DNA of 46,480 nucleotides from Paenarthrobacter sp. PH39-S1 (GTDB lineage Bacteria > Actinomycetota > Actinomycetes > Actinomycetales > Micrococcaceae): positions 1 to 46,480 of the forward strand of contig NZ_JASISR010000031.1 of the NCBI RefSeq assembly GCF_030063245.1. The letters are read 5' to 3'. Shown here one piece after another: positions 3,717-14,788 of this stretch. Each line of letters opens with the position of its first letter. The first letter of the stretch is position 1. Made by a program: the position numbers and the translations under genes. The notes below the pieces were generated by a model. The model saw only the letters and a program-made list of their open reading frames with translations. It had not been told where the DNA came from and searched no databases.

Positions 3717-4577
3717 ATGGCCCCCGAATCCCTGAATTGGAAGATCCGTGCCCGTGTGCAGTCCGAGGGGGACGCGCACGTGATGGAGGATACCTGCGGG
3801 TTTGCCGGCCCGGCCGCCTGGGTGATCGACGGTGCCACCTCCCTGCTGGAACCGCTCGGCCTGCCCGGAGCCTCCGATCCCTCCTGGCTGGCGCAGACGC
3901 TCTCCATTGCCTTGACCGAGGTGGTGGCGGAATCCGAGCCAGCGGCCCCGATGTCGGAGTCCGGCGTCCGGGCTCTGTTGGCGGCGGCGCTGCAAAAGGT
4001 CGACGACGGCGGCCGGCGGTCAGTGGGGGAGGAACGCGTGCGCTTTCCCAGCGCGGCCGTTTCCGTAGCCCGGTTGAACGACGGCGGCGTGGAAGTGCTC
4101 AGCCTGGCCGACTGCCACGTGGCGGTACGGCTGGCCGGGGGCGGTATAGAGCACGTCTTCAGCGAGCTGGCTGATTCCCGCATCCACGCTGCCGTGCCGA
4201 CTACCGGCCCGGATCCGGTCGGCCTCCGGGTGCGGCAGATCGCGGACCGGGAACGCCGCAACACCGCGGACGGGCTCTGGGTGGCACGCCGCGAGCCGGC
4301 GGCGGCTGACCACGCGTACGTCGTCCAGCTGCCCCGGCCCGAACTGATGGTGATGGCCTCGGACGGCGCCTGGCGGGCCGTCGATCTTGGCCTGATGAGC
4401 GATGCCGGAGAATTCCTGGAGGCCGTCTCGACGCCCGTCGGTGCGCTGGAACTGATGCACCGGCTCCGCGCCCATCAGCGGGCCATCGGCGAGGTGGCCG
4501 ACGACGCGACGGTGCTCGTCGTCGAACCGGCGGACCAGGACCAGGACGCCACCCGGGTCCAACTGCCCCGCAGATAA
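3717..4577 (+). CDS. PP2C-like protein phosphatase
   Basis: A 286-aa soluble protein with a diverged PP2C fold. In order: VIDGATSLL (about residue 38, metal-binding Asp strand), SLADCHVAV (about 127), MASDGAWRAVD (about 216) and VADDATVLVVE (about 260), which correspond to PP2C motifs with the Asp residues that bind Mg/Mn. It would remove phosphate from Ser/Thr or act on small phospho-compounds; the substrate is unknown. No membrane segment or signal peptide. It stands alone between two palindromes, and the downstream palindrome supplies its last four codons and stop (LPRR). The start is probably leaderless. Confidence 0.75.
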   Translation: MAPESLNWKIRARVQSEGDAHVMEDTCGFAGPAAWVIDGATSLLEPLGLPGASDPSWLAQTLSIALTEVVAESEPAAPMSESGVRALLAAALQKVDDGGRRSVGEERVRFPSAAVSVARLNDGGVEVLSLADCHVAVRLAGGGIEHVFSELADSRIHAAVPTTGPDPVGLRVRQIADRERRNTADGLWVARREPAAADHAYVVQLPRPELMVMASDGAWRAVDLGLMSDAGEFLEAVSTPVGALELMHRLRAHQRAIGEVADDATVLVVEPADQDQDATRVQLPRR

Positions 4578-4619
4578 GAGCCGGCAAAGCGCGGTTTTCG
4601 TGCGTTATCTGCGGGGCAG
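4563..4619. repeat. REP-like palindrome 2 forming both convergent gene ends
   Basis: Perfect 15-nt arms CTGCCCCGCAGATAA (4563-4577) and its complement (4605-4619). The left arm is the last four codons and stop of the PP2C-like gene; the right arm, read on the other strand, is the last four codons and stop of the sulfatase. Its minus-strand sequence (GCAGATAACGCACGAAAAC) resembles palindrome 1. It may also act as a bidirectional terminator. Confidence 0.85.
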
Positions 4620-6101
4620 ATGGGCTTCGGCGCCTGCCAACCGTTCGCGCGTGTGCCGGAGGATGGAGGTCACGGCCTTCCCCGCGACCAGCCGCCCGTC
4701 CTCGATGAAGCCCTCCTCCCGGCCGGTCAGGTCCCGGATCAGCCGGGACTTCCACAATGCCAGCAGCTCGGCGTGCGCCGAATCATCCGCCAGGTTGTCC
4801 AGCTCACCGGGATCCGCATCCAGATCGAACAGCTCTTCGGTGCCCCAGCCCGAGGCCCACAGGTACTTCACATGACCATCGGTGACCCACTGCAGGGACT
4901 GTCCGAAATAGACATGCTCGCCGTGCAGCCAGTCCCGGACCGGAACACCGGCTTCGCCGTGCAGCAACGGAACCAGGGATATGCCGTCGCACTCCGGCGG
5001 GACCGGGATGCCGGCAAGATCCAGCAGTGTGGGCATCACGTCCCGCAATTCCACCACCTGGTCGACGACGATCTGCCGGGCCGCCTTCGCGTCGGACGGC
5101 GCGGGGGCAAGGATGAACGGAATCCGGGCCGAGCCCTCATAGCCGACGGCCTTGCGGTAGAAGTCGTGGTCGCCCATCATCTCGCCATGATCGCTGGTAA
5201 ATGCGATGACAGTGTCGTCGGCGAGCCCAAAGTCGGACAGAGCCTCCTGCAGCCTCATGATCTGAAGGTCGACGTGGGCCATGAGCCCGTAGTAGCCGGC
5301 CCTCGCGCGGTGCGTCACAGCCTCGGACAGGGTGCCGAACGCGGCCTGGTGCAGCCCGTCGGTCCGGACGGCATCGAAATGGTGCTCCCAATTGCCCAAC
5401 CGGCGTCGGAATGCGGGCAGGTCCAGATACTGTTCGAAGGCCCACGCCGGCGGATCGTAGGGCGGGTGCGGCCGATGGAAGGACAGGTACAGGAAGAATG
5501 GCCTGGTCGGATCCCGGCGGTACAGCCAGTCAACAGCCTGACTGCCGGCCCAGCTGGTCGGGTGCAAGCGCTCGGCCTTGTCCCAGGGACGGGCCACCGT
5601 GGAATTGCAATTGACCCCGTGGTCGAAGTATTCCTCCTCCGGGTCCACGCCCGGCTGCCGGCGCAGCCAGGGGACGTAGTCGTCGAAGAACCTGAAATTG
5701 AGCCGGTGCTGCTGACGGGCGAAGTGCAGGAAACCATCGTGCAGGATGACGTCATCGAAGCCGATTCGACCCCGCTCCGGGAAGACATGCATCTTGCCGA
5801 TCGCCTGGGTCTGGTAGCCCGCCTTGCGGAACTCGCCCTGGAGCGTCACCGGGTGCGCAACATCGAAGGGAACTCCCTCCTGGTAGCCAACCCGTCCGTG
5901 CCGTTCCTGGGACTGGCCGGTGAAGAGGGCAACGCGGGCCGGCACGCAGGTGGGTGTGGCGGAATACGCGTGCTCAAACCGCGAGCCCTTGCGGGCCAGT
6001 TCGTCCAGGTGCGGGGTTTGGAGGTAGGGGTGGCCGGCGCCGGAAAGGCAGTCGCCGCGCCATTCGTCGGCGCAGATCAGGATGACATTGGGCCGCGTCA
6101 T
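4605..6101 (-). CDS. Type I (cysteine-type) sulfatase
   Basis: Hydrolyses a sulfate ester, probably on a carbohydrate given the neighbouring galactosidase operon; the exact substrate cannot be told. The 498-aa protein starts MTRPNVILICADEW with a metal Asp, has the sulfatase signature TCVPAR with Cys52, which must be converted to formylglycine, then SFHRPHPPYDPP and the second metal site TSDHGEMMGDH. No signal peptide is seen, so it probably acts in the cytoplasm. I chose the ATG at 6101, not the longer frame to 6170, because residues before it are non-homologous and the ATG overlaps the TGA of the upstream FGE remnant (ATGA), implying past translational coupling. AAGGAAAGG upstream can serve as the ribosome site. 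The last codons come from palindrome 2. Confidence 0.93.
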   Translation of the reverse strand: MTRPNVILICADEWRGDCLSGAGHPYLQTPHLDELARKGSRFEHAYSATPTCVPARVALFTGQSQERHGRVGYQEGVPFDVAHPVTLQGEFRKAGYQTQAIGKMHVFPERGRIGFDDVILHDGFLHFARQQHRLNFRFFDDYVPWLRRQPGVDPEEEYFDHGVNCNSTVARPWDKAERLHPTSWAGSQAVDWLYRRDPTRPFFLYLSFHRPHPPYDPPAWAFEQYLDLPAFRRRLGNWEHHFDAVRTDGLHQAAFGTLSEAVTHRARAGYYGLMAHVDLQIMRLQEALSDFGLADDTVIAFTSDHGEMMGDHDFYRKAVGYEGSARIPFILAPAPSDAKAARQIVVDQVVELRDVMPTLLDLAGIPVPPECDGISLVPLLHGEAGVPVRDWLHGEHVYFGQSLQWVTDGHVKYLWASGWGTEELFDLDADPGELDNLADDSAHAELLALWKSRLIRDLTGREEGFIEDGRLVAGKAVTSILRHTRERLAGAEAHLPRR

Positions 6102-6561
6102 GTGGGACTGGCCACCTTTCCTTCGTTCGGTTTGTCCAGTTTTGTCCGGCCACACACGTTCAGCCACCACAGGACATCGGCCACCGCGCCAAGGATGTCC
6201 TGCGGATCAGCGCGGACCGTGAGATGGAAAACGGCGGACGTGCCGTAGATTTCCGACTCGGTCCGGTATCCGGTCGACTCGACAAAGGCCGCGAACTGGG
6301 CATTGCTGACCGCGGCGGAGTCGATCCGGAAGGACTCCAGACTGACCTGGTGGACGGCGTTTCACCGTCGCCAGCGCAACCCTCCCCGAACGGATCCCTC
6401 ATCACGAAGGTGCCGCCCGGAATTCTGACGTCCTGATGGACGAGGGCGGTCGGCGGGCTTCCGCTGCCGGCCCCGCCGCGTTGGCTCTCCGGGCCGGCGG
6501 CGACATGGCCGGCCACCACGGGAGGCTCGTCGCGGCGCTGCGGGCTGCAGCACTGCGCCAT
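6098..6561 (-). pseudogene. Remnant of formylglycine-generating enzyme (FGE/SUMF1 family)
   Basis: FGE oxidises the sulfatase active-site Cys to formylglycine. Starting at ATG 6561 (ribosome site GGAGG), the frame reads MAQCCSP, then HQDVRIPGGTFVM and DPFGEG, typical of the FGE N-terminus. A one-base loss near 6355 shifts the frame; the next frame continues VHQVSLESFRID, AVSNAQFAAFVESTGY, YGTSAVFHLTVRAD and WWLNV, again FGE-like. Homology then stops near 6155 and a short tail runs to a TGA overlapping the sulfatase ATG. About 150 residues remain of the usual 300 or so; the core and C-terminal catalytic cysteines are gone. The frameshift alone could be a sequencing error, but the large deletion could not easily be. 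Confidence 0.82.
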
Positions 6562-6705
6562 GGATCCTCCGTTCGGCTGGTGGCGGTGGCGGCGGAGCGG
6601 ATCGATGAATGCCGCCGTCCTCCGCTTTATGGTAGCCCGGCCATGGCCCGATGTCGCCGTCAACGTGACGAAAGATGCTTGTTACATCAGTATTCGATCA
6701 GTTTC

Positions 6706-6734
6706 TTGCATTTTTGAAATTCATCCCCTACGTT
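6706..6734 (+). promoter_or_regulatory. Promoter of the sugar ABC/GH35 operon
   Basis: TTGCAT (6706-6711) and TACGTT (6729-6734) are separated by exactly 17 nt, a good sigma-70-type pair. The -10 box touches the LacI-type operator, so repressor binding would block initiation. Confidence 0.6.
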
Positions 6735-6751
6735 TGTTAAACGGTTAACAA
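6734..6751. promoter_or_regulatory. LacI/GalR-family operator
   Basis: TTGTTAAACGGTTAACAA: an 18-bp near-perfect palindrome with central CG and a single mismatched pair, the classic layout of LacI-family sites. It overlaps the -10 box and lies 55 nt before the first permease gene. The likely ligand-responsive repressor is the LacI-family protein encoded at 10630-11622 in the same operon. The site is also about 170 nt from the FGE remnant start, so it could once have controlled the sulfatase side too. Confidence 0.72.
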
Positions 6752-6806
6752 GGTGCGGGTCACATGATGTCTCCCCCGCCGCAGCCCAAAGGTAAGAGGA
6801 GAGAGC

Positions 6807-7850
6807 ATGAGCTCGACAACGAGTGAGGTGCCGCCGGCGCCGGCGCCCGAACGCGCCACGGCTTCGACCGGACCGGGTAGATTCCGGGGCGGGAAGAAGA
6901 AAGCGTCCGCGGTGGCTGGACAGAGTTTTGCCGGACAAAGTTTCAGGGTGCGGTGGAAGCGCGACCGGCAGATGCTGTTGATGATGGTGCCGGGTGTGCT
7001 CTTCCTCTTGCTCTTCTTCTACATCCCTATTCTTGGCAATGTCATTGCCTTTCAGGACTACCAGCCATTCTTGGGCATCGGAGACAGCGACTGGGTCGGT
7101 TTTCAGAACTTCGTGGATCTCTATTTCAACCCGGACTTCTGGGTGGCGCTGCGGAACACCCTGGTGCTGGCGCTCTGGCAGCTGCTGCTTTTCTTCCCGG
7201 TCCCGCTGGGATTGGCGCTGGTTGTGGATTCACTCATGAGCTCCAGGATCCGCCGGTGGTTCCAGAGCATTGTCTACCTGCCGCACTTCCTGTCCTGGGT
7301 CCTGGTTATTGCGCTGTTCCAGCAAGTGCTGGGCGGGGCGGGGCTGGTCAATAACGAGCTGCGGCACCTGGGACTGGATGCTCTTCCCTTCATGACTAAC
7401 CCGGATACGTTCCCGCTGCTGGCCACGGTGCAGCTGGTGTGGAAGGACGCCGGCTGGGCGATGATCATTTTCCTTGCCTCGCTGGCCAGCATAGATGGGT
7501 CCCTCTATGAGGCCGCGGCCGCGGATGGGGCCGGGCGCTGGCGCCGGATGTGGCACATCACGCTGCCCGGCCTGCGGTCCATCATCATCCTGCTGCTCAT
7601 CCTGCGCATTGGGGACATCCTCAGCGTCGGCTTTGAACAGTTCCTGCTCCAGCACGACGCGGTGGGTCCGGGGGCCTCGGAAGTGCTGGATACCTTCACG
7701 TACTTTGCTGGCGTGGTGGGCGGCGGCTGGAGCATCGGCGCCGCGGCCGGCCTCGCCAAGGGCATCGTTGGCGCAGTCCTGATTTTCGCGGCCAATAAGG
7801 TGGCGCACAGGTTGGGCGAACCCGGAATCTTTTCGAAAAAGGCCGGCTGA
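6807..7850 (+). CDS. Sugar ABC transporter permease (LplB-like)
   Basis: First membrane subunit of a binding-protein-dependent sugar importer of the CUT1 type. After a polar 50-residue N-terminus the first membrane segment covers about residues 56-76 (LMMVPGVLFLLLFFYIPIL), with five more to the end. The cytoplasmic EAA loop that contacts the ATPase begins at Glu235 (EAAAADGAGRWRRMWHITLP). Length 347 aa is usual for this subfamily, which often handles complex oligosaccharides or glycosides. AGGAGAG precedes the ATG. No ATPase gene is present in the operon, so a shared MsmK-type ATPase from elsewhere is implied. Confidence 0.92.
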   Translation: MSSTTSEVPPAPAPERATASTGPGRFRGGKKKASAVAGQSFAGQSFRVRWKRDRQMLLMMVPGVLFLLLFFYIPILGNVIAFQDYQPFLGIGDSDWVGFQNFVDLYFNPDFWVALRNTLVLALWQLLLFFPVPLGLALVVDSLMSSRIRRWFQSIVYLPHFLSWVLVIALFQQVLGGAGLVNNELRHLGLDALPFMTNPDTFPLLATVQLVWKDAGWAMIIFLASLASIDGSLYEAAAADGAGRWRRMWHITLPGLRSIIILLLILRIGDILSVGFEQFLLQHDAVGPGASEVLDTFTYFAGVVGGGWSIGAAAGLAKGIVGAVLIFAANKVAHRLGEPGIFSKKAG

Positions 7851-7894
7851 TTCCGGGCCTGCGCCGGGAATCCAGCCACCCAAGGAGGCATCTC

Positions 7895-8833
7895 ATGGCA
7901 ACAGACACAATGGTCCGGAAGACATCCGGCAGGCAGTCCAAGGGGCTGACTTTCAATCCCACACGTCCGGCCTGGAAGGAACCGGTCTCGCCGCTCTACC
8001 AGGCCATCAAGGCCGTCGTTCTGGGACTCATCACGCTTTCCATCGTGCTGCCGATCCTGCTGGTGGTTTCAACATCCCTGGCGGATGACCAACAGCTGGT
8101 GGCCGCGGGCGGCTACGTGCTGTGGCCCACGCACCCGACGCTGCAGGCCTACCAGGCCATCTTCAGCGGACAGTTCATGTTCCGGGCGCTGGGGGTGAGC
8201 GCCGTCGTGACGGCGGTCGGGACCGTGCTGGCCCTGTTCGTCACGATCACCATGGCGTACGCCACCAGCCGTCCGGTGCTCTTCGGCCGGCCCGTGCTGC
8301 TGATGGTGCTCTTTACGCTGCTGTTCGCCCCCGGCCTGATTCCGATGTTCCTGATGGTCAAGCAACTGGGCCTGCTGGACACCTTGTGGTCGCTGATCCT
8401 GCCGGGCATCTTCGGAGCCTTCAACTTTGTGGTGATGCGATCCTTCTTCATGAACATTCCGCAGGAGCTCATCGAGGCGGCCCGGATCGACGGTGCCAGC
8501 GACGTCAAAATTCTGTGGAAAATCGTGCTGCCGCTCTCCAAGGCCGTGGTCGCCGTCGTCGGCCTGTTCTATGCCGTCGGATTCTGGAACGCCTTCTTCA
8601 ACGCAATGCTCTACATCAACGACCAGACCAAGTTCCCCGTCCAGCTGGTGCTGCGCAACTACGTGGTGCAGGGCGGCGGCCTGGCCGACCAGCTGGGGAT
8701 CGCCTCCACACCGCCGCCGCAGTCCATGCAGATGGCCATCGTCGTCGTGGCGCTGCTGCCCATTCTGCTCGTCTACCCATTCCTGCAGAAGCACTTCAAC
8801 AAGGGCGTCATTACCGGCGCCATCAAGGGATAA
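7895..8833 (+). CDS. Sugar ABC transporter permease (YtcP/LplC-like)
   Basis: Second membrane subunit, pairing with the preceding permease. Of 312 aa, it opens with a polar N-terminus, then VLGLITLSIVLPILLVVSTSLAD as first membrane helix. The EAA loop begins at Glu194 (EAARIDGASDVKILWKIVLPL). The C-terminus VITGAIKG is typical for the family. AAGGAGG stands 6 nt before the ATG, and the gap from the previous gene is 44 nt, so the two are cotranscribed. Confidence 0.92.
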   Translation: MATDTMVRKTSGRQSKGLTFNPTRPAWKEPVSPLYQAIKAVVLGLITLSIVLPILLVVSTSLADDQQLVAAGGYVLWPTHPTLQAYQAIFSGQFMFRALGVSAVVTAVGTVLALFVTITMAYATSRPVLFGRPVLLMVLFTLLFAPGLIPMFLMVKQLGLLDTLWSLILPGIFGAFNFVVMRSFFMNIPQELIEAARIDGASDVKILWKIVLPLSKAVVAVVGLFYAVGFWNAFFNAMLYINDQTKFPVQLVLRNYVVQGGGLADQLGIASTPPPQSMQMAIVVVALLPILLVYPFLQKHFNKGVITGAIKG

Positions 8834-8849
8834 ACAGAAAGGACATGCG

Positions 8850-10520
8850 ATGACTCGCACTTCCAAAGACGCCGGCGTCAGCCGGCGCAACTTCCTGGGC
8901 CTCGCAGGGCTTTCCGTCACAGCCGTGGCCGTGGGCGGATCGCTGGCCGGCTGCGGCGGTACCGGCTCCGGTGCCAGCGGCGGCGGCGCGGCATCCGCCG
9001 GCGTCAAGCTGCCCACCTACAAGGAATTCACCGGGATTACACCGGATTTCGCGGGCAACGCCAAGGGGTTGCAGGCTGGTTTCCTGACGATGCCCAGCCC
9101 GGTGCAGACGGTGAAGACGCCTCCGCTCAAGGGCACGGTCACGGGCCTGACGGAAACCTTCGAGACCATGTCCCCCGCGATGGCGGACAACAAGTTCTGG
9201 CAGCGGCTCAACGCCAAACTCGGCGGCACACTGGACCTGCAGATCGCCGAGGACGTCGGAGATGGGTACCCGGCCAAGTTCGCCACCATCCTGGCCAGCG
9301 ACACACTGCCGGACATGATGTGGGTACCGCCGAACCAGGGTATCCCGAACATCGGCCCGATGCTGGAAGCCAAATTCCAGGACCTGACCAAGTACCTCTC
9401 GGGCGACGCCGTGCTGGAGTACCCCAACCTGGCCGCACTGAAACCGGACTCCTGGAAGACCGCCGTCGTCAACGGCAAGATCTGGGGCGCGCCGATCCCC
9501 AGCACCCCTTTCGGACAGGTGCTGGCCGGAAACAAGACCACCTGGGCACAGGTGGGCGGCCTGACCGCGAGCAGCGCGGATGAGTTCTTCCAGAAGGCGA
9601 AGGAGCTGACCCGGCCCAACGAGGGCAAATACGCGCTGGAGCCGGCCTACATCAACCTGCTGCACATGATCACCGAATGGCTCGGTGCCCCGAACGGCTG
9701 GGCAGTCAACAAGGACCGCACCCTCACCAACCGCTATGAAACGCCGCAGTATGAGGCGGGCCTGGAGTATGCGTCCAAACTGTTTGCCGCCGGCTGCTTC
9801 TACCCGGACGTCAATGCCACGGACATTTCCAACCGGATTGTCAACGGCACCGTCGCCGCCCAGGTGATCGTGGGACCCCACAACATCGCCCGCTACCGCA
9901 ATCTGGACAAGGATGCCCAGACGGAGATCCTGATTCCCTTCGGTTTCGATGGAAAGATCAGGCCCACCTATGACATGGGCTACGGAACCGTCGGCTTCAC
10001 GGCTTTCAAGAAGACCGATGAGGGCAAGATCCGCGAGCTGCTGGCGCTGATGAACTACCTGTCCGCGCCGTTCGGCAGCGCCGAATACCTGCAGAAGAAC
10101 TACGGCGAAGCTGGCCAGGACTACACGACGGACGGCGGCGGCAACCCGGTCATGACCGAATCCGGGCTGAAGGACATCCCCGGCGTAGCCAGCGCCCTGA
10201 ACATCATGTCCAGCCCGGAGAACGTGGTGTTCAACCCGGCATTCCCGGATGACACCAAGTACATCTATGAGCAGGAAAAGAAGCTGCTGGACTTCGCCTG
10301 GCGCAATCCGACCAACGGCTCGTACTCGGACACCAACGCCAAGGTGGGGGCGAAGATCAACAAGATCATCACGGATAAGACCATCGACATCATCACCGGC
10401 CGCGCCAAGGTCTCCGACTTCAAGGATGCGGTGAAGCGCTGGAAGGACGGCGGCGGAGACAAGATCCGCGAGGAGTACCAGAAGGCGCTGCCCGCGGACG
10501 TGCCGGTGTTCGGCGCGTAG
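8850..10520 (+). CDS. Extracellular sugar-binding lipoprotein (LplA-like)
   Basis: Captures the sugar outside the membrane and delivers it to the two permeases. The start at 8850 (ribosome site AGAAAGGA) gives a signal with a twin-arginine motif SRRNFLGLAG (Arg12-Arg13) and lipobox SLAGC with Cys35 as the lipidated residue, so it is probably exported folded by Tat and anchored. At 556 aa it is one of the large binding proteins of the LplA group, which tend to take oligosaccharides. The open frame extends upstream to 8493, but that part overlaps the permease in another frame and is not coding. Confidence 0.92.
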   Translation: MTRTSKDAGVSRRNFLGLAGLSVTAVAVGGSLAGCGGTGSGASGGGAASAGVKLPTYKEFTGITPDFAGNAKGLQAGFLTMPSPVQTVKTPPLKGTVTGLTETFETMSPAMADNKFWQRLNAKLGGTLDLQIAEDVGDGYPAKFATILASDTLPDMMWVPPNQGIPNIGPMLEAKFQDLTKYLSGDAVLEYPNLAALKPDSWKTAVVNGKIWGAPIPSTPFGQVLAGNKTTWAQVGGLTASSADEFFQKAKELTRPNEGKYALEPAYINLLHMITEWLGAPNGWAVNKDRTLTNRYETPQYEAGLEYASKLFAAGCFYPDVNATDISNRIVNGTVAAQVIVGPHNIARYRNLDKDAQTEILIPFGFDGKIRPTYDMGYGTVGFTAFKKTDEGKIRELLALMNYLSAPFGSAEYLQKNYGEAGQDYTTDGGGNPVMTESGLKDIPGVASALNIMSSPENVVFNPAFPDDTKYIYEQEKKLLDFAWRNPTNGSYSDTNAKVGAKINKIITDKTIDIITGRAKVSDFKDAVKRWKDGGGDKIREEYQKALPADVPVFGA

Positions 10521-10629
10521 CGTGATCCGCCGCGTTCGGCGGCACTGCCGCGGTGGCTGGTCCTCAGGGCCCGCCGCCGCGGCTACAGTAACCATCAGGT
10601 AGGACTTCAGCAGTGATTGGGGCATCGGA

Positions 10630-11622
10630 ATGCGGGCTACTATCCGGAGTGTGGCAGGGGAAGCGGGAGTCTCGACGGCGACCGTCTCGTATGTACTCTC
10701 GGGGCGCCGCGGCGCCAAGGGACAGGCCGGGGTTTCCCCCGCCACGGTCCAGCGTGTCAGGGACGCGGCTGACCGGCTGGGTTACCAGCCGAATTCCGCG
10801 GCCCGGGCCATCCGGACCGGCCGGACGAATACGGTGCTGCTGTCCCTGACGATGCTCTCCGACCCATGGTCGCTGGAGGTCATCGAGGCCGTCCAACGCC
10901 TCGCCGCTCCGCTGGGCATCACGCCGATGATCCTGGCCGACGCGGACTGGGCCCAGGTACTGCGGAACCACGACGCGGACGCCGTCTTCATCGACGCCGT
11001 GCCGCCGGAGAGCCGGGACAGCCTGGGCAGGCTCGCGGAACGGGGCACCCGGCTGGTGGTATTCGACGAGACGCTGGCGCCGGAGGGCTTCGATGTGATC
11101 CGTTCCGTCGCCGGGCCCGGCTGCGTCCTGGCGATGGAGCACCTGCTCAAAAAGCACCGCAAGGTGGGCTGCCTGACCTCCGGCCGGAGCGCAGCGCCGG
11201 GACCTCCGTCGCGCTACCTGGCCTATGTCCAGGCCTTGGCCGGTGCCGGTCTGGAGCTGCGCGAGGACTACCTGGAGACCTTCGATGTCACCCCCGCCAG
11301 CGCCTACGCCGCCGCCGTGCGGATGCTCTCCGGCCCGGAGCCGCCCACCGCAATTTATGCCACCACGGACTATGCGGCGATGAGCGCGGTCAACGCCGCG
11401 CAGCGACTGGGCCTGGCGGTGGGCCGGGACATTGACATCATCGGCGTGGGCAACACCGGGGAGGGGGAACGGATGACTCCCTCGCTGAGCTCGGTGGGAC
11501 CCATTGATTTCTTCGACAGGGTGGCGCGGCTGCTGCTGGACCGGGCCACCGGCGCGGAGCGGGAAGCGGCCGTACTGGACTTCCCGTGGCAGCTGTTCGC
11601 CCGCGAATCCGCGCCGGCATAG
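10630..11622 (+). CDS. LacI-family transcriptional regulator
   Basis: A 330-aa repressor. The N-terminal helix-turn-helix reads IRSVAGEAGVSTATVSYVLSG, followed by the hinge-helix region RLGYQPNSAARAIRTG; residues 60-330 form the periplasmic-binding-protein-like sensor core ending in a conserved domain with DIIGVGNTGEGERMTPSLSSV. It probably senses a galactoside-type sugar and binds the palindrome at 6734-6751. It sits 109 nt after the binding-protein gene, inside the operon it is expected to control. The ATG has only a weak ribosome site (GGGGCATCGGA). Confidence 0.9.
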   Translation: MRATIRSVAGEAGVSTATVSYVLSGRRGAKGQAGVSPATVQRVRDAADRLGYQPNSAARAIRTGRTNTVLLSLTMLSDPWSLEVIEAVQRLAAPLGITPMILADADWAQVLRNHDADAVFIDAVPPESRDSLGRLAERGTRLVVFDETLAPEGFDVIRSVAGPGCVLAMEHLLKKHRKVGCLTSGRSAAPGPPSRYLAYVQALAGAGLELREDYLETFDVTPASAYAAAVRMLSGPEPPTAIYATTDYAAMSAVNAAQRLGLAVGRDIDIIGVGNTGEGERMTPSLSSVGPIDFFDRVARLLLDRATGAEREAAVLDFPWQLFARESAPA

Positions 11623-11711
11623 CGGCAGGTGCAGCAGCAGGTTCAGCCGCTTCAGCAGCAGGTACAGTCAGCAGATTTAGTCAGATTCAGGTAAGAGGAA
11701 TGCAAAACACA

Positions 11712-12905
11712 ATGGACACAGTTGATATGAAGATTGGTGTTGTCGGATTCGGGCTGCGGGCGGGACTGTGGAAGCACGCGCACAAACCGGGCCAGGGCTC
11801 CGAGGTCACCGTTGTCTGCGACACCAGTAAGCGCGGCCGTGCCGACGCGGCGGCGAAGATTCCGACGGCGAAGGTCACCGATGACCTGGACGTGCTGCTG
11901 GCCAGCGGCTTGGATGCGGTCCTGGTCCTGACCCCGGACAACCAGCATGCCGTGGTGGCCGTTGAGACGCTCAGGGCCGGTATCCCGACGTTCTGCGAAA
12001 AACCGCTGGATGTCACCCTGGAGGCCGCGGACCTGGTCCTGCAGACGGCCTTTGAGACCGGGACCCGGCTCTACGTTGGGCACAACATGCGGCACATGCC
12101 GGTGGTGGCGCAGATGCGCCAGCTGATCCTCGACGGCACCATTGGCGAGGTCAAGGCCATCTGGTGCCGGCATTTCGTGGGCAATGGCGGGGATTACTAC
12201 TTCAAGGACTGGCACGCCGAGCGGGCCAACACCACGGGCCTGCTGCTGCAAAAGGGCGCCCACGACATCGATGTGATCCACTGGCTGGCCAACGGATACA
12301 CCAAGCGGGTGTCCGCGGTGGGTGATCTTGCGGTGTACGGCGACGTAGCGAGCCGACGGGACAACTCTGACCGGCGCATGGGCGACTGGTTCAGCCTGGA
12401 CAACTGGCCACCCACCGAGCAGACGGACCTGAACCCGGTCATCGACGTGGAGGACATCTCGATGATGCAGATGGTCCTGGATAACGGCGTGCTGGCGTCC
12501 TACCAACAGTGCCATTTCACCCCCGATTACTGGCGGAACTACACGGTGATCGGCACCAGAGGCCGAATTGAGAACTTCGGTGACGGCCCGGGCGACGTCA
12601 TCCACGTCTGGACCACCCGGACCCAGGACGGCTTCAGCGAGCCGGATGCAAAGGTGGAGATCCTCGACGGCGACGGCGGCCACGGCGGGGCGGATCCGAA
12701 GCTGATCGCCGAGTTCCTGGACTTCGCTCGCCACGGAGGCACGACTCAGACCAGCCCGGTAGCGGCCCGCCAGGCCGTGGCGGCCGGCGTGCTCGCCACC
12801 GAATCGCTGCGTACCGACGGCTCCGCGCGCACGGTGCCGCAATTGGCTCCCGAGCTGCTGGAGTACTTCAACGCCGGCCAGCCCGCACGTACGACGGCCC
12901 TGTAA
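11712..12905 (+). CDS. Gfo/Idh/MocA-family oxidoreductase
   Basis: NAD(P)-dependent sugar or sugar-acid dehydrogenase of about 397 aa. Near the N-terminus is the Rossmann motif GVVGFGLRAG; the family signature FCEKPLD holds the catalytic Lys, and GAHDIDVIHWLANG lies in the substrate domain. Three starts are possible: 11700, 11712 and 11727. I chose 11712 because AAGAGGA touches the first one and is 12 nt from this one. The gene lies between the regulator and the beta-galactosidase, with 2 nt to the latter, so it likely oxidises or epimerises the sugar released by the galactosidase; the actual substrate is unknown. Confidence 0.88.
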   Translation: MDTVDMKIGVVGFGLRAGLWKHAHKPGQGSEVTVVCDTSKRGRADAAAKIPTAKVTDDLDVLLASGLDAVLVLTPDNQHAVVAVETLRAGIPTFCEKPLDVTLEAADLVLQTAFETGTRLYVGHNMRHMPVVAQMRQLILDGTIGEVKAIWCRHFVGNGGDYYFKDWHAERANTTGLLLQKGAHDIDVIHWLANGYTKRVSAVGDLAVYGDVASRRDNSDRRMGDWFSLDNWPPTEQTDLNPVIDVEDISMMQMVLDNGVLASYQQCHFTPDYWRNYTVIGTRGRIENFGDGPGDVIHVWTTRTQDGFSEPDAKVEILDGDGGHGGADPKLIAEFLDFARHGGTTQTSPVAARQAVAAGVLATESLRTDGSARTVPQLAPELLEYFNAGQPARTTAL

Positions 12906-12907
12906 CC

Positions 12908-14788
12908 ATGACGCACGCTCACCTTCGTCCGGGCGTTCCCGGGACACCCCTCGCAGCCGCCTCCGCCCCCGAACCAGCACTCACCATCCGCGAGGGCGCG
13001 CTGTTCCGCAATGGCAGGGAGCACCGGATCCTGGCGGGGGCCATCCACTACTTCCGGGTCCATCCGGCGCAGTGGGAGGACCGCATAGCCCGGCTGGCGG
13101 CGATGGGCGCCAACACCCTTGACACCTATATTGCCTGGAACTTCCACCAGCCCAAGCCCGGTGAGGCTCCAGACTTTACCGGTTGGCGCGACGTGGCACG
13201 TTTCATCCGGCTGGCGGAGCAGGCAGGTCTGGACGTGATCGTGCGCCCGGGTCCGTATATCTGTGCCGAATGGGACAACGGCGGATTCCCATCCTGGGTT
13301 ACGGCCATCCCCGGCATCGGGCTGCGCAGCTCGGACCCCGCCTTCACTTCGGTGGTGGGGAAGTGGTTTGATCAGCTCCTGCCCCAGCTGGGGCCGCTGC
13401 AGGCGGCCCACGGCGGGCCCATCGTCGCCGTGCAGGTGGAGAACGAATACGGCAGCTATGGCGACGACCGGGACTACCTGCGATGGAACCGGCAGGCCCT
13501 GCAGGAGCGCGGCATCACCGAGATCCTTTTCACGGCCGACGGCGGCACGGATTACTTCCTGGATGGCGGCGCCCTGCCGGATACCTGGGCCACGGCGACA
13601 CTGGGCAGCCGTGGCGCTGAGGCCATTGAAACCTGGAAACGCCGACGCCCGGGCGAGCCGTTTTTCAATGTGGAATTCTGGAACGGCTGGTTCGACCACT
13701 GGAAGGAGCACCACCATACGCGTGACGCGGCCGAGGCCGCTTCCGAGGTGCGCCAGATGCTGGAGCGGGACGGCTCCGTCTGCCTCTACATGGCCCACGG
13801 CGGAACCAATTTCGGGCTGACCTCCGGCTGCAACCATGACACGATCCTGCAGCCCACCGTCACCAGCTACGACTCGGACGCGCCGATCGCGGAGGACGGT
13901 ACCCTGACGGATAAATTCCATGCCATGCGTGCCGAATTCCATGCCGCGGCCGGCAAGGAACTGCCGCCGCTCCCCGCTGGCCTGACGACGCCGACGGCGA
14001 CAGTGGCGCCGCAGACGCTGGCCGTGCGCCCCGGCGTCGGGCTTCTGGATTTTGCGCGCTCGGGCCAGCCGGTGCGCAGCGTCCGGCCGCTCAGCTTCGA
14101 ACAGCTCGGGCTTGACCGCGGGCTTGTCCTGTACAGCGCCACGGCCGTGCTGCCGGATACGGAGACCACCATCGGCATCCGGGATCTGCATGACCGGGCC
14201 TACCTCTGGGTTGACGGCGCCTTCGCCGGGGTGCTCGATGATGCCACCGCGGCCGACGGCGTCCGTGTCACGGGTGCGGGGAAACCGGCAAGGCTGGAGA
14301 TCCTGGTCGAGAACCAGGGTCGCATCAATTACGGTCCGCTGCTGGGACAGGGCAAGGGCATCCTGGGCGGCGTCTTGGTGGGACGGCGCTACGTCTTCCA
14401 CTGGGAGCAGCGCCTGGTGCCGCTGGAGGAATTGGACGAGGGTCGCTTGGGTGTGCTCTCCTCCACCGGACCCGCTGCCGAAGATCACGCGATTGCCGGC
14501 ACCGGATTCGCTGCGGCGGACTTTGAGCTCACAAATGCTGCCGACGCCTACCTGGCGCTGCCCGGATTCGGCAAGGGCTTCGCCTGGGTCAACGGCTTCC
14601 TGCTTGGCCGGTACTGGGAGACCGGACCCCAGATAACGCTGTACGTCCCGGCCCCGCTGCTGCGCCCCGGACGTAACCGGATCACCATTCTCGAGCTGGA
14701 ACACCTCGGGACCGAGCTGGAACTGCGCGACCAACCAGAGTTGGGATCTGACCCGTCCGGGGCGGAGGCGCTTCCCTCCCTGAGCTGA
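12908..14788 (+). CDS. Beta-galactosidase, glycoside hydrolase family 35
   Basis: Removes terminal beta-galactose from glycosides or galactan oligomers. The 626-aa protein shows the GH35 barrel in its first half: FRNGREHRILAGAIHYFRV at the start, the acid/base Glu180 in VQVENEYGSYG and nucleophile Glu256 in FNVEFWNGWFDHW, then YMAHGGTNFG. The second half holds beta-sandwich domains, with GFGKGFAWVNGFLLGRYW near the end. No signal peptide is seen, so it probably works in the cytoplasm on imported sugar. It begins 2 nt after the oxidoreductase stop and ends the operon. Confidence 0.95.
   Translation: MTHAHLRPGVPGTPLAAASAPEPALTIREGALFRNGREHRILAGAIHYFRVHPAQWEDRIARLAAMGANTLDTYIAWNFHQPKPGEAPDFTGWRDVARFIRLAEQAGLDVIVRPGPYICAEWDNGGFPSWVTAIPGIGLRSSDPAFTSVVGKWFDQLLPQLGPLQAAHGGPIVAVQVENEYGSYGDDRDYLRWNRQALQERGITEILFTADGGTDYFLDGGALPDTWATATLGSRGAEAIETWKRRRPGEPFFNVEFWNGWFDHWKEHHHTRDAAEAASEVRQMLERDGSVCLYMAHGGTNFGLTSGCNHDTILQPTVTSYDSDAPIAEDGTLTDKFHAMRAEFHAAAGKELPPLPAGLTTPTATVAPQTLAVRPGVGLLDFARSGQPVRSVRPLSFEQLGLDRGLVLYSATAVLPDTETTIGIRDLHDRAYLWVDGAFAGVLDDATAADGVRVTGAGKPARLEILVENQGRINYGPLLGQGKGILGGVLVGRRYVFHWEQRLVPLEELDEGRLGVLSSTGPAAEDHAIAGTGFAAADFELTNAADAYLALPGFGKGFAWVNGFLLGRYWETGPQITLYVPAPLLRPGRNRITILELEHLGTELELRDQPELGSDPSGAEALPSLS

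Follow-up and report, generated by a model that had tools for sequence, protein, structure and literature searches.

A probable recent FGE pseudogene upstream of an intact Cys-type sulfatase gene in Paenarthrobacter sp. PH39-S1

We find that an intact sulfatase gene in the window (the whole 46,480-nucleotide stretch analysed here) stands directly downstream of what is, judged by its sequence, a recently formed pseudogene of a formylglycine-generating enzyme (FGE; 6155–6561, minus strand). We consider it highly probable that this FGE was dedicated to the sulfatase, became redundant and decayed recently, and that a spare FGE now serves the sulfatase in trans. In this account, the ancestral FGE would have served the downstream Cys-type sulfatase and very probably been cotranscribed with it. 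With two more full-length FGEs in the genome, the local copy would have been redundant, and we infer that this redundancy was the cause of its loss. A frame break of one base and a deletion of 593 bp, its ends at short similar sequences, would then have arisen in the gene. The sulfatase, apparently still selected, would have its Cys52 converted to formylglycine, most likely by the FGE encoded on contig C47 or the one on contig C75. The features of the locus, given in window coordinates, are as follows.

4605..6101, minus strand: intact Cys-type sulfatase, 498 aa, with Cys52 in CVPAR (PF00884, E = 9.6e-45).
6364..6561, minus strand: FGE remnant, first frame, made up of the first 66 codons, start codon included, which cover the N-terminal tail and the beginning of the domain (alignment with the intact copy at locus L022).
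6355..6361, minus strand: frame break, where the length differs by one base from that of the intact copy in the sister (DNA alignment with L022).
6155..6355, minus strand: FGE remnant, second frame, residues 70–136, ending at the conserved WWLNV.
6160..6162, minus strand: stop codon of the open reading frame (ORF) that opens at the FGE start codon (ORF list and translation).
6140..6160, minus strand: approximate deletion scar, with a net 593 bp gone relative to the sister.

The sulfatase combines the sulfatase domain (PF00884) with the C/S-x-P-x-R signature (here CVPAR), two marks of a type I (formylglycine-dependent) sulfatase, and the preliminary description of this DNA, made from the sequence without database searches, was correct in placing Cys52 in that motif. 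The protein scores 653.9 bits against the NCBIfam arylsulfatase model NF010322 (cut-off 481); its scores against the choline-sulfatase model TIGR03417 (191.4 bits, cut-off 433.45) and the manganese-dependent arylsulfatase model NF052527 (427.6 bits, cut-off 850) both fall below threshold. Across orthologues at 60 loci, an alignment-based count, in which a species represented by two loci counts twice, gives CVPAR in 59 and CIPAR in one. The nearest solved relative is EfAS, an Enterococcus faecium arylsulfatase (PDB 9koq, E = 8.3e-113), whose metal and nucleophile residues D20, C61, D311 and H312 align with identical residues of the window sulfatase (hand count, chain numbering offset 4), and the second best is the choline sulfatase 7oz8 (E = 3.8e-87). 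In Arthrobacter sp. AZCC_0090 (L051:6001–7137), the orthologous sulfatase matches in pieces that lie in different frames, with stretches missing, and may be a pseudogene.

A sulfatase-based scan of genome contigs returned 30 loci, the nearest of which (L022) belongs to Arthrobacter sp. H14-L1. Its sulfatase is 97% identical to that of the window (479/496), and directly upstream, in the same direction, lies an open FGE of 332 aa whose stop stands 54 nt before the sulfatase ATG. Because the corresponding stretch of a genome of the same genus (G002) is identical to L022 letter for letter, we took that genome as H14-L1's species, referred to here as the sister; one sulfatase and one FGE were found in it, side by side. 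The sister FGE aligns with the solved bacterial aerobic FGEs 2q17 and 6muj (PF03781), each at E = 1.5e-111 with the alignment reaching residue 328 of its 332, and all three have the motif GGSYLCHxSYC in common. Compared with such an enzyme, the window copy lacks residues 137–332 and the whole cysteine motif, and its frame is broken. The earlier proposal that an FGE once stood beside its client and was then lost is thus borne out by an intact gene 54 nt away in H14-L1 and a broken one in the window strain.

Alignment with the sister accounts for the remnant residue by residue. Window positions 6561–6355 correspond to residues 1–69 of the intact FGE at 80% identity (the residue is kept in 52 of the 66 codons of the first frame), and positions 6355–6155 to residues 70–136 at 91%; the two matches join in different frames at 6355–6361, which places the frameshift that had been suspected near 6355. 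Over a 756-bp alignment that takes in the upstream spacer, the two DNAs are 88% identical. Searching both frames against PF03781, a check that had been proposed, revealed FGE similarity in the second frame only: the piece at 6101–6361 (minus strand) matched at E = 6.9e-8 (32.9 bits against the Pfam cut-off of 23.3), covering profile positions 28–72 of 255, and the first-frame piece (6163–6561), scanned as it stands, gave no Pfam hit. A whole-genome PF03781 search also recovered the remnant, with one internal stop. An FGE remnant directly upstream of the sulfatase is therefore supported both by the profile match and by the L022 alignment.

The rest of the gene was not found at the window locus when the L022 FGE was aligned to it. 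Two anchors shared by both DNAs lie 54 bp apart in the window and 647 bp apart in L022, a net loss of 593 bp that removes residues 137–332, and with them the core and C-terminal half that had been described as missing. In H14-L1, the segment absent from the window is bounded on either side by similar short sequences around TGGCTGA, so that slippage or a short-homology deletion would fit as the origin of the loss. Thus, the remnant retains a match to the FGE domain, divided between two frames instead of lying in a single ORF over the whole domain, and the part that would bear GGSYLCHxSYC is deleted. This motif, present in all 33 FGE loci that we fetched (31 of them distinct), holds two cysteines near the C terminus, which we take to be the active-site cysteine pair of FGE. 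In a tree in which 30% of the columns are filled for it, the remnant falls beside the sister FGE with support of 100/99.

The preliminary description had also noted an ATGA overlap that would couple the FGE remnant to the sulfatase, and this did not hold. The ORF that opens at the FGE's own ATG (6561) ends at 6160–6162, which leaves 58 nt to the sulfatase ATG at 6101; the ATGA at 6098–6101 is reached only by the second frame, past the break and across the scar into the former spacer. Because the gap in the intact sister is 54 nt, we rejected the overlap as an ancestral device for translational coupling; it arose through the damage. When 6050–6850 was scanned for promoters and terminators, no site of either kind came up, so it is the gene arrangement that makes former cotranscription of the FGE with the downstream sulfatase plausible.

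Substitutions relative to the sister separate the two genes. The sulfatase has 17 nonsynonymous and 58 synonymous changes (dN 0.015, dS 0.179), a pattern that indicates purifying selection, whereas the remnant has 20.5 and 9.5, respectively (p = 3.6e-5 against the sulfatase, Fisher test on rounded counts). Because the N-terminal tail of an FGE may vary anyway, we counted the conserved part separately, and the excess of amino-acid changes was seen there too (9 nonsynonymous and 6 synonymous; p = 0.0096), the yardstick in each case being the sulfatase and not an equally old pair of intact FGEs. Within that part, changes affect the MGD glycine, the EGY tyrosine and the PWW proline, each of which is invariant in all 33 fetched FGE rows (31 distinct, one of them the sister's). 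These counts and replacements point to relaxed constraint on the remnant.

To place this loss among its relatives, we looked beside the sulfatase at the 60 loci, with flanking sequence that reached about 6 kb at most of the 30 named loci and 1.5 kb or less at most others, and found an FGE or its remains at six, a species represented by two loci counting twice. These are the window itself, L012 and L022 (one species, intact), L023 and L052 (one species by identity of the stretch, broken) and L054 (intact). The possibility that relatives keep the same short form as an intact, conserved gene, which had been named as a danger to the decay reading, was rejected: the 60 loci show a full-length FGE, a differently broken FGE or none that we could find. 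The differently broken copy is that of Arthrobacter sp. SDTb3-6 (L023, about 5600–6000, and also L119). Like the window, this strain has a degraded FGE upstream of the sulfatase, which is 87% identical to the window's, and, to go by how the neighbouring ORF begins, a similar divergent transporter permease next to it. The lesions differ: FGE residues 1–57, 137–222 and 317–330 survive there in shifted frames, whereas the window keeps residues 1–136 without the remainder. Because of this difference, the loss in SDTb3-6 looks independent of the one in the window.

Both genomes with a broken copy hold two other FGEs. In SDTb3-6 these lie on C54 and C112, the latter distant in sequence (37% identical to the sister's) with its C-x4-C pair kept. 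By contrast, the two genomes with an intact same-direction pair (G002 and G181) have one full-length FGE each in total, to which G181 adds a weaker PF03781 match of 115.8 bits. A link between spare copies and decay, that is, loss through redundancy, fits this distribution, although two broken and two intact loci are too few to prove it. We considered whether the adjacent FGE of G181 is the orthologue of the sister's and found no support for this, as it falls among the FGEs of genus g25 in the tree and its surroundings differ; the sister FGE is 68% identical to it, compared with 72% to the C47 FGE of the window strain.

The window strain's assembly (4.65 Mb in 135 contigs, 99.4% complete, 3.2% estimated contamination) encodes two further full-length FGEs, at C75:17705–18541 and C47:74009–74869. 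They score 263 and 256 bits, contain no stops, carry GGSYLCHxSYC and lie each near another sulfatase; seven sulfatases were found in this genome, all of the Cys type, six of them besides the window's. The proposal to look elsewhere for a second FGE or an anaerobic maturase gene therefore succeeded for the first and drew a blank for the second. The anaerobic maturase model TIGR03942 matched none of the five genomes of the genus, the strain's own included (12 of 14 controls matched, 2 of them over the cut-off), and TIGR04085 was absent from the window genome (10 of 14 controls matched), so that no radical-SAM maturase was detected as a candidate activator by either search. Of the three outcomes that had been envisaged for the sulfatase, service by another FGE in the genome, inactivity or use of the unmodified cysteine, these results favour the first.

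Of the four other genomes of the genus, only the sister's has a full-length FGE, a single one. Given this scarcity, we checked the spare copies for foreign origin. Of C47, 12 kb has matches in each of these four genomes, with identities of 82–91% in places (best 91% over 2.8 kb), which indicates that the contig belongs to the genus. C75 has a G+C content of 61%, compared with 66% for the window. Tetranucleotide correlations with the window are 0.75–0.95 for C47 and C75 (0.83–0.88 for C75 alone), as opposed to 0.46–0.54 for three outgroup loci (from Kribbella, Streptomyces and Microbacterium); composition thus hints that C75 belongs to the strain. Among the C47 stretches examined, the 11-kb one that bears the FGE resembles the window least (0.75), which makes horizontal gain possible. 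On the strength of the C47 matches and of compositions closer to the window than to the outgroups, contamination was set aside as the source of the spare FGEs, with the reservation that either contig may come from a contaminating close relative. Four Cys-type sulfatases and an FGE are clustered in about 22 kb of C47 (L120 and L121; G000 C47:50000–80000), apparently a sulfated-glycan locus.

If the adjacent activator has gone, the sulfatase might no longer depend on FGE at all and work with an unmodified cysteine, the activator having become dispensable. There is a precedent for residual activity without FGE: in its unmodified form, the Ensifer meliloti choline sulfatase is reported to be a slow multiple-turnover enzyme (PMC6189696), and among the solved relatives of the window protein a choline sulfatase ranks second. 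The same study blames the low activity of the Ensifer enzyme on the missing modification (PMC6189696). In EfAS, the cysteine that aligns with Cys52, C61, is oxidized to formylglycine, the crystal contains both unmodified and modified forms, and the C61A mutant is inactive (PMC12421950).

The distribution of FGE also speaks against independence from it. We sampled 395 genomes of the family and found this sulfatase at E ≤ 1e-150 in 32, the window strain and the sister included; all 32 have a PF03781 match. A full-length FGE (E ≤ 1e-60) is present in 31 of these 32, compared with 95 of the 363 genomes that lack the sulfatase at its threshold (Fisher p = 6e-16, uncorrected for phylogeny and for the further sulfatases that most of these genomes contain); in G072, the one genome that departs from this, a contig end truncates the FGE. 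In three of the genomes (G002, G220 and G333), this is the only sulfatase found, and exactly one FGE was found in each, which adjoins the sulfatase in G002 and lies about 11 kb from it in G220 and about 347 kb from it in G333. A full-length FGE adjoins the sulfatase in 4 of the 32, in the same direction in G002 and G181 and divergently in G098 and G114. The last two, which fall outside the 60 loci, have about 255 bp between the two matches (G098:C6:553370–555876 and G114:C1:65770–68276). From the co-occurrence and the genomes with one sulfatase and one FGE, it follows that this sulfatase goes with an FGE and that adjacency is not needed, which argues that the modification matters for the window sulfatase. 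We therefore regard a sulfatase that dispenses with its activator as very unlikely, and give slightly less credence still to a drift towards useful unmodified-cysteine activity in which the loss of the activator in two lineages marks a departure from formylglycine dependence.

Equally improbable, in our estimation, as a sulfatase freed from FGE is one that is already inactive in the window strain and heading for loss after its activator. The dead adjacent gene and the fragmented sulfatase of AZCC_0090 lend this some colour, but the window ORF is full length and keeps CVPAR, two intact FGEs are present in the assembly, and the sulfatase's 17 nonsynonymous to 58 synonymous changes, which span the time before and after the loss of the FGE together, speak against it. 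That the break is partly or wholly an artefact of sequencing or assembly is scarcely credible: the strain is represented by one sequence, a 135-contig draft with some estimated contamination, and a sequencing error might by itself account for the frame break, but a 593-bp loss with clean flanks is much less likely to be one, and neither it nor the excess of amino-acid changes with altered invariant positions resembles base error.

Decay of a redundant, dedicated FGE with service in trans remains the reading that we favour, and the case is an ordinary, recent gene loss with intact spares. No decayed FGE gene of this kind came up in listings of open PMC literature on FGE pseudogenes and on formylglycine and sulfatases in Arthrobacter. 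The sister, with one sulfatase and one FGE, and the window strain form a clean before-and-after natural experiment, and the spare FGEs of the latter may bear on how interchangeable bacterial FGEs are between clients. For annotation, the locus warns against calling a sulfatase inactive just because no activator gene adjoins it.

Beside the 3′ end of the sulfatase gene lies an ORF of 286 aa (3717–4577) without a Pfam match at 1e-5. On the other side, a cluster runs divergently from the remnant.

6807..14788, plus strand: divergent cluster with two ABC permeases, a LacI-type regulator, a Gfo/Idh/MocA oxidoreductase and a GH35 beta-galactosidase (Pfam scan).

It also holds an ORF without a Pfam hit that, by eye, resembles a substrate-binding lipoprotein. 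From this neighbourhood, we would guess that the substrate of the sulfatase is a sulfated galactoside.
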